Shown: in pieces, positions 27,512 to 61,129 of the stretch
How the letters are laid out: every line of letters starts with the position of its first letter
Position numbering within the stretch: the stretch's first letter is position 1
Origin: Candidatus Hydrogenedentota bacterium
GTDB taxonomy: Bacteria > Hydrogenedentota > Hydrogenedentia > Hydrogenedentales > JAEUWI01
DNA: 64,000 bases
NCBI GenBank assembly: GCA_019637335.1
Contig: JAHBVV010000001.1
Coordinates: forward strand, 565,440 to 629,439
Direction: 5' to 3'
Made by a program: the position numbers and the translations under genes
The notes under the pieces: generated by a model
Told to the model about the DNA's origin: nothing
Database searches by the model: none
The model's input: only the letters and a program-made list of their open reading frames with translations

Positions 27512-27739
27512 CGCCCGGGGTCCGATTCGCCCCGGCCAATCGCATTCAATATGGATCGAGGAGGATGGGCGTTTGCCCCTGACGATTTGGACCCTCGAAT
27601 CAAGGATCGTGAGCGTATTGGAGCGCCGGCATCTCCGCCGGCAAGGTCCGTGATTCGCCGCGGCGAAATCCCAGCGCTCCAACTCGCGCCCTTCTTTACA
27701 TTGCAGGTGGATCGTATGGCGCTCGGCTCGGATTGGACG

Positions 27740-28383
27740 TTAAAATGGGGCGCCGTTCTGGTATTACCGCACCTCGGCAGTGGGGAAGTTAGAAAAGTCT
27801 CGATTTTAGGTAATACTTTAGCCGTATGAAGTAGCGCCAGCCCATTCTTGTCATGCCGCGTTACTACGACGAGAGCTCGCAAGGCTGGGAGCGCAGGCGT
27901 CCCCGCCTGCAATGCACCGGAGGTGCATGGCGTATTTGCAATATCGGCACACTTGATCGGCGAGAGAATTGGAGCCGGACTACCGCTGATTAGCAGACTC
28001 GCGCCTCCGGCGCGTTGCGGGCGGGCCGCCCGCGCTCCCATTCGTCCGCACTTCCGTTGCGGCCCGGGATTTTTCGTCGAGGAATCAAGCCAGCTTCATT
28101 CCGCTAAAGAATTACGATTTTAGCAGTTCGGCGAAAACCCGTTATGATACGGGCTTTCAGCCTTGGCCGAAATAGCCGTCATTTTTCCTGGGCCTGCGGC
28201 CCAGGCTGATATGATCGGGCGCCTTCGGCGCAGAAGAAATGATATTCCGAAAATAAGGGCCGAAGGCCTGCTTCAAACCAGCCTGGGCCATCGGCCCAGG
28301 CAAAGGGCTCAAACAGGTGATAAGGGCTGAAGGCCCGCTCCATAGCGCTCGTAATTCATCGGTCAGAACTGCACCTTAAAATG
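27740..28383. mobile_element. MITE family A copy, interrupted by a nested MITE, with 8-bp target duplication
   Basis: The element (27748-28375) has TTAAAATG on both sides (27740-27747 and 28376-28383). Its left end reads GCGCCGTTCTGGTATTACCG and its right end GGTCAGAACTGCACC, matching the intact element at 36896-37205. It is interrupted at 27809-28114 by a family B element. Without the insert and its duplication it is about 314 bp, close to the 310 bp of the intact copy. Confidence 0.85.
27801..28122 (+). mobile_element. 306-bp MITE family B copy 2, nested, with CGATTTTA target duplication
   Basis: Element 27809-28114 with ends GGTAATACTTTAGCC and (inverted) TAATTCTTTAGCGG. CGATTTTA occurs directly on both sides (27801-27808 and 28115-28122). 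The uninterrupted family A copy at 36940-36965 shows a single CCGATTTTT at the matching point. GTAA-like tips and the 8-bp duplication suggest IS66-type transposase in trans. The stretch 27512-28498 is made of these elements and a palindromic GGAGCGCCGGC unit near 27620; no gene. Confidence 0.85.
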
Positions 28384-28498
28384 TGATTCCCGCGCCGGCG
28401 CGTTCCGGCCCCTGTAGCGAATGCGGGCCCGCGTGGTAAGGTAAGGGACTGGATCGAGGCAGGGCTCGGGTTTGGGTCCCGATGAGGCGGAAGTTTCC

Positions 28499-36805: not shown

Positions 36806-36895
36806 GGGGATCTCCTCGCGCGCGGGCCTGCCTGACGCCCGCGCCATCTATAGTGTACCACGCGGCGTTAACTTTTCCCGGCCTGAATTTATTCG

Positions 36896-37205
36896 GGTGC
36901 AGTTCTGATATTACCGCGCCCGGACTATGGGCAAGTTAGAATTGTCCCGATTTTTGAAATTCGCCGGAAACCCACTATGATACGGGCTTTCAGCCTTGGC
37001 CGAAATCGTCGTCATTCTTCCTGGGCCTGCGGCCCAGGCTGATATGAGCGTGCGCCTTCGGCGCTGAAGAAACGGCATTCAGGGCCGAAGGCCTGTTTCA
37101 AACCAGCCTGGGCCGTCGGCCCAGGCAAAGGGATCCAATAAGCTATGAGGGCTGAAGGCCCGCTCCATAGCGCTCGTGATTCATCGGCAATATCAGAACT
37201 GCACC
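36896..37205 (+). mobile_element. Intact 310-bp MITE family A copy with 17-bp terminal inverted repeats
   Basis: GGTGCAGTTCTGATATT at 36896-36912 is repeated in perfect inversion at 37189-37205. The interior has several small hairpins, for example CTGGGCCTGCGGCCCAG and GCCTTCGGCGC. No clear target duplication here (TTTATTCG against CATTGATT). No ORF of note. It fills most of the space between the lipoprotein and sulfatase genes. Confidence 0.85.
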
Positions 37206-37296
37206 CATTGATTCGCGTTGTCCACCGCGCCTACGCTATGGGACTGACGTTCGGGCCGTGACGCCGATTATCCATTTCAGCCGCGAGGTTTCAGCA

Positions 37297-60706: not shown

Positions 60707-60779
60707 GCCACGAGTATGGCAGGCCGGCGCCCGAAGCGGCAATGCGCGGCAGGGCAATCGCATCTCAGTATGGTCGCAA

Positions 60780-61065
60780 GCCTGAGTCGATTTGGAGCCG
60801 GTGTGTATGGAGCGCCGGCGGCTCGCCGGCAAGGCGCCGAAGGCGCCAGAACACGATGCCGGAATCCTCCGACGTCTCGCGGCATCTGATGTAACGGTGG
60901 CATTTCCAGAACGCTGTCTTGCGCCGGCGGCGCAATCTGCCGGCGGGCCGCCGGCGCTCCATAGTTGCACGTACCTTTATTCAGCAAGTCGCTTTGGTTT
61001 GGCCACCGTGCTTGGTTCGGCTAAAGTGCTACCCTTGCGGGTGTATCGTATGGCGCCCGGCTCGA
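60780..61065. repeat. Imperfect long palindrome of the GGAGCGCCGGC type
   Basis: TATGGAGCGCCGGCGGCTCG at about 60804 is answered by GGCCGCCGGCGCTCCATAG at about 60946-60964. A further piece, TATCGTATGGCGCCCGGCTC, recurs near 27717 in the form TCGTATGGCGCTCGGCTCG. This is a dispersed intergenic repeat; 60707-61129 holds no gene. Confidence 0.6.
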
Positions 61066-61129
61066 ACTGGAAGTCTGGATGCGATTGCCCCGCAAACCGC
61101 GGCGCGGCCGCTTCTCCCGGCCATCCGGA

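Follow-up and report, generated by a model that had tools for sequence, protein, structure and literature searches.

How several small, gene-less elements came to lie one inside the other at positions 27740-28383 of the window (the whole stretch of 64,000 nucleotides analysed here), by what means they move and in which order they arrived are the questions raised by this locus. Our analysis revealed that the nested MITEs are real and that their transposon biology, in a bacterium that is little studied, is for the most part ordinary. The explanation as a whole builds on the observed nesting, target duplications, copy families, tips common with full-length elements, target motif and recurrent sites; according to it, non-autonomous elements of families A and B are moved by ISKra4 and IS66 transposases, the nest arose in the order C, A, B, and the hot sites consist of a motif in dispensable DNA. 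We regard this explanation as very probable.

The family A element, an ISKra4-tipped MITE broken by B, occupies positions 27748-28375 (+) and is flanked on each side by the 8-bp target duplication TTAAAATG (27740-27747 and 28376-28383, unstranded), exactly at the coordinates given in the original prediction. The left duplication lies inside the right inverted repeat of a further element, C. An uninterrupted family A copy, with the ends GGGTGCAG...CTGCACCC, is indeed present where it had been placed (36896-37205), and the full element is one base longer on each side (36895-37206, +). It carries its own near-perfect duplication, ATTTATTC (36887-36894) and ATTGATTC (37207-37214), in which 7 of 8 bases agree. 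At the right tip of the interrupted copy about 5 bp are missing (CGGTCAGAAC for CGGTAATATCAGAAC), as is one terminal C; since it is short of part of its inverted repeat, this copy may be immobile today. The inner family B element, an IS66-tipped MITE (GTAATACTTTAGCCGTATGAAGT ... GCTTCATTCCGCTAAAGAATTAC), is located at 27810-28115 (+). Its predicted length of 306 bp and its 8-bp duplication were borne out, but the frame proposed for the duplication, CGATTTTA, began one base early; the correct frame is GATTTTAG (27802-27809 and 28116-28123, unstranded), as shown by the frame of other B copies and by the symmetry of the tips (GTAA...TTAC). Both A and B are gene-less, as claimed, and the window, also claimed to be free of transposases, gave no match to the two families scanned (profiles PF03050 and NF033572).

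Throughout the genome both A and B proved to be multi-copy elements with terminal inverted repeats and 8-bp duplications. As a query, the uninterrupted A returned 61 matches, from complete copies down to fragments, and B returned at least about 40 copies among the matches listed, mostly near-complete. B-type tips occur 273 times in the genome at up to 3 mismatches, and the reversed control of the tip pattern occurs 0 times at the same threshold. The flanks of A were compared in 17 elements, the full-length partner described below included, with A read from GGGTGCAG to CTGCACCC; at least 6 of 8 bases matched in 14 of them versus 1.5% of mismatched pairs, the mean numbers of matching bases being 6.5 and 2.2, respectively. 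The flanks of B agreed at all 8 bases in 15 of 29 copies and at 7 or more in 19. None of 20,000 rounds of flank shuffling reached the observed total for A or for B, and the 8-bp duplications are statistically clear for both families. In agreement with the predicted mobility, BLAST matches of full copies end at the element ends rather than continuing into flanks shared beyond the 8 bases, and in most copies the flanks are duplicated.

None of the 59 related genomes searched contained full-length A or B; only their GC-rich inner cores turned up again, in genomes of the same genus and a few more from the order. The GC-rich core of B forms small inverted pairs in the sister genome G001 (L146 and other loci), and it looks as if an older repeat had been captured between IS66 tips. 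Exact A-type tips were detected on seven contigs of one Hydrogenedentota MAG, which suggests a host of that phylum and shows that this lineage of tips extends beyond the MITE itself.

The full-length transposons with the same tips that the original prediction proposed to look for were recovered in the same genome, one per family. The partner of A (G000:C27:66515-68063; 1,549 bp) consists of a tip pair about 1.5 kb apart enclosing one gene for a protein of 492 aa; it ends in GGGTGAAG...CTTCACCC and has a perfect 8-bp duplication, ATTATTTG, the same duplication length as in A. The 22-bp tips of A match those of this partner (GGGTGCAGTTCTGATATTACCG versus GGGTGAAG(A/T)TCTGATATTACCG). The 492-aa protein narrowly passes the NCBIfam ISKra4 profile NF033572 (206.1 bits, cut-off 205) and is its sole match above the cut-off in the genome. 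A thus resembles ISs of the ISKra4 family in its GGGTG... tips, its 8-bp duplication and the existence of a same-tipped full-length element with an NF033572 transposase, and differs from them in being gene-less, with an interior of GC-rich hairpins unrelated to the transposase gene.

The partner of B (G000:C4:200366-201890; 1,525 bp) is an IS66 transposase gene framed by B tips, both ends having at most 1 mismatch to the common B tip pattern. Its 490-aa product matches PF03050 (E=4.3e-38), zf-IS66 and NF033517 (279.7 bits). This gene fills the element alone, and the tnpA and tnpB of classical IS66 are absent from this copy. ISBst12-like members of IS66 have a single gene, without tnpA and tnpB, and the partner fits this type. 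No clear duplication was found in the flanks of the partner copy (AAAAAAAA / AAAGTGTC). B shares with the ISBst12-like type the tips GTAA...TTAC, the 8-bp duplication and a same-tipped element with PF03050 and zf-IS66, and is distinguished from it by its length of 306 bp and the lack of a gene. Homology of both MITEs to their partners is limited to about 22 bp of tip. Because the tips match, movement in trans by the partner transposases is the probable mode for both families: A, which keeps the 22-bp ends of an ISKra4-family IS, would be moved by an ISKra4 transposase duplicating 8 bp, and B, which keeps the ends of a single-gene IS66-family IS, by an IS66 transposase with an 8-bp duplication and a palindromic target near TTw-GAwwwwTC-wAA. 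We infer that A and B are active at present. Several longer IS66-tipped elements were also observed on contig 1 (for example C1:232540-233311, 274914-276020 and 913519-914733), with interiors that are apparent patchworks of dispersed repeats. Similar translations recur from element to element, and no convincing passenger genes were recognized in them by eye, the interiors seeming to be amalgams of other repeats.

The nest is three deep, C, A and B, and its outermost layer had been missed by the original prediction. The left flank of A has matches at many genomic places, which end at the duplication of A. Once the flanks of A are joined, they align over 229 columns with 77-80% identity to eight C copies, ungapped across the A junction, so that the TTAAAATG target of A corresponds to TTTAAATG of C, in its right inverted repeat. 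The eroded family C copy spans 27532-28394 (+) and measures about 228-230 bp without A and one TSD; its left end aligns with CAGGGCAATCGC..., its right end lies beyond A, and no 10-bp duplication of its own survives. Members of family C are about 230 bp long and have the tips CAGGGCAATCGCATTTAAAC, of which the genome contains 166 (about 83 elements). In their flanks the matched fraction is highest at 10 bp, with a total of 118 versus a shuffle maximum of 85. Other C copies have received inserts as well, A in L013 and B in L033, L054 and C3:53030-53572. At about 60750-61092 of the window (G000:C1:626189-626531) we noticed a further element with C tips that measures 343 bp rather than 228 and contains an IS66-type tip; it is apparently a second nest within the window. 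ISAs1 was considered as parent of C and rejected, the duplications being 10 bp instead of 8; the genome gave no match to the ISAs1 transposase profile (NF033564), and no parent transposon of C was found in it.

Insertion of IS66-tipped elements into A is a recurrent event. Twelve such insertions were counted in 11 A copies, and 11 of the 12 lie at two fixed 8-bp sites: five at the GATTTTTG site (the window, L028, L015 and two in L006) and six at around A positions 176-185 (CGAAATTC, CGATATTC and similar; L020, L023, L024, L025, L026 and L027). The remaining one (L018) occupies a CGGCGCTG site. At contig ends, where five of the 12 are situated, a single junction is visible. Nested elements sharing one A site measure 306, 326, 331, 225 and 180 bp and are unlike in sequence; given that the readable ones differ in both length and sequence, most of the insertions appear to be independent. 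At L006:885-1766 (G000:C17:137672-138553) two different IS66-tipped elements stand in tandem at one A site, where GATTTTTG is present three times. A further pair of IS66-tip matches, at G000:C1:426306-427922, shares the flank GAAAATCG at successive positions, which looks like re-insertion into an element's own duplication.

The distribution of these insertions was compared with a position matrix derived from 26 insertions outside A, taken from 1.19 Mb (contig 1 and part of contig 3) chosen regardless of A. The preference is palindromic, roughly TTw-GAwwwwTC-wAA, and the median score of left-out insertion sites lies at the 99.5th percentile. In the uninterrupted window A, the GATTTTTG site at A position 54 comes first among about 340 positions, with a score at the window's 99.95th percentile; the real nested sites in A fall between the 92.5th and the 99.96th percentile of contig 1. 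Part of the pattern escapes the motif, for some A positions that score equally well (5, 44 and 299) have received no insertions. Flank folding energy at insertion sites does not differ from that at motif-matched random sites (p=0.28), and flank GC is not distinguishable from that of motif-matched controls, so that attraction by hairpins was rejected. Since the matrix ranks the hit sites high and folding and GC gave null results, target choice together with tolerated DNA explains most of the hotspot: the two A sites have been hit repeatedly, probably through their resemblance to the preferred IS66 target, in an element that is probably dispensable non-coding DNA.

One alternative holds that A is a true landing pad, exerting a specific attraction, by sequence or hairpin, on IS66-tipped elements beyond what the motif predicts and possibly recording their excision. 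The 12 insertions compare with 0.2-0.3 expected by length, or about 2.9 if about 12% of the genome is assumed to be available (P about 5e-5), 11 of them fall on two 8-bp sites, and one A copy was struck twice at one site. Yet the hit sites are already ranked high by a motif trained outside A, folding energy does not set them apart, and family C has also been struck several times; we therefore consider a specific attraction rather unlikely, and hold to the target motif and dispensable DNA. Were it true, nested MITEs would grow by rule and not by accident. As to excision, an extra 8 bp is present exactly at the second hot site in window A (28235-28262), L008, L013, L020 and L025, which read TGATATTC-CGAAAWTM-AGGG or similar, versus CGATATTC-AGGG; another, different 8-bp tandem repeat occurs there in L015. 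The extra 8 bp may be an excision footprint in which both copies of the duplication were left behind.

Regarding the order of events, the window B is 98% identical to the L032 copy, which has its own perfect duplication, while no other A exceeds about 92% identity to the window A; a recent arrival of B in an older A is therefore likely. The predicted sequence of A first and B later is thus favoured by relative identity and falls short of strict proof, as a B-bearing A could have moved. Transposition of A to this place as a single unit already carrying B agrees with the position of B in the interior of A only, since an A that keeps its tips might in principle remain mobile, and with L028, which has a related B at the same A site in the same orientation. 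It is nevertheless distinctly improbable, because the window B is 98% identical to the L032 copy elsewhere, the B inside the L028/L047 A copy being only about 84% identical to it, and because the variable lengths of same-site nested elements point to independent insertions. In the favoured order, A would first have inserted into the right inverted repeat of an old C, and B would then have landed in A at a GATTTTTG-type site. The two flanking genes of the locus are about 20 kb apart in G001, the one same-genus relative with both on one contig, and for this reason an empty orthologous site was not found.

An origin of A and B as artefacts of assembly or as segmental duplicates, without any transposition, is scarcely credible: several copies do lie at contig ends, as is typical of repeats, but copies are found on many contigs in unrelated flanks, each with a distinct 8-bp duplication. 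Contigs C4, C6, C11, C12, C28 and C55 at their ends, and C1 at its start (all G000), terminate inside IS66-tipped elements, often in A, and IS66-tipped repeats appear to break this assembly.

MITEs that are restricted to a lineage, coexist with intact parental ISs and often lie within other elements have been documented in bacteria (PMC9769881, PMC3189936), and nested elements are handled as a matter of routine in de novo surveys (PMC3852290). MITECca01 of Cardinium is likewise IS-derived, lineage-specific and present in many copies alongside an intact parental IS, and is mostly intergenic and often within other mobile elements; its parent belongs to the IS982 family and, unlike A, few of its copies are interrupted (PMC9769881). 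MITEPsy1, found repeatedly inside copies of ISPsy17, is another bacterial MITE within a mobile element and includes a tandem insertion with an IS, whereas its duplications are 4 bp, its tips ISPsy2-like and its host a full IS and not a MITE (PMC3189936). In a literature search of partial coverage we found no papers tying MITEs to IS66 or ISKra4 and nothing direct on transposons in Hydrogenedentes. Because no paper describing A or B was found, it is plausible that both are undescribed for this lineage, as had been supposed.

In a repeat-rich genome, two MITE families that had no name are now linked to transposase families that have one, and the 10-bp duplication defines a third, MITE-like family, C. 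Nests of this kind break assemblies, several contigs of this genome ending exactly in them. For an IS66 transposase, the natural insertions provide a target rule that can be tested, and this rule explains the repeated landing of one MITE in another.
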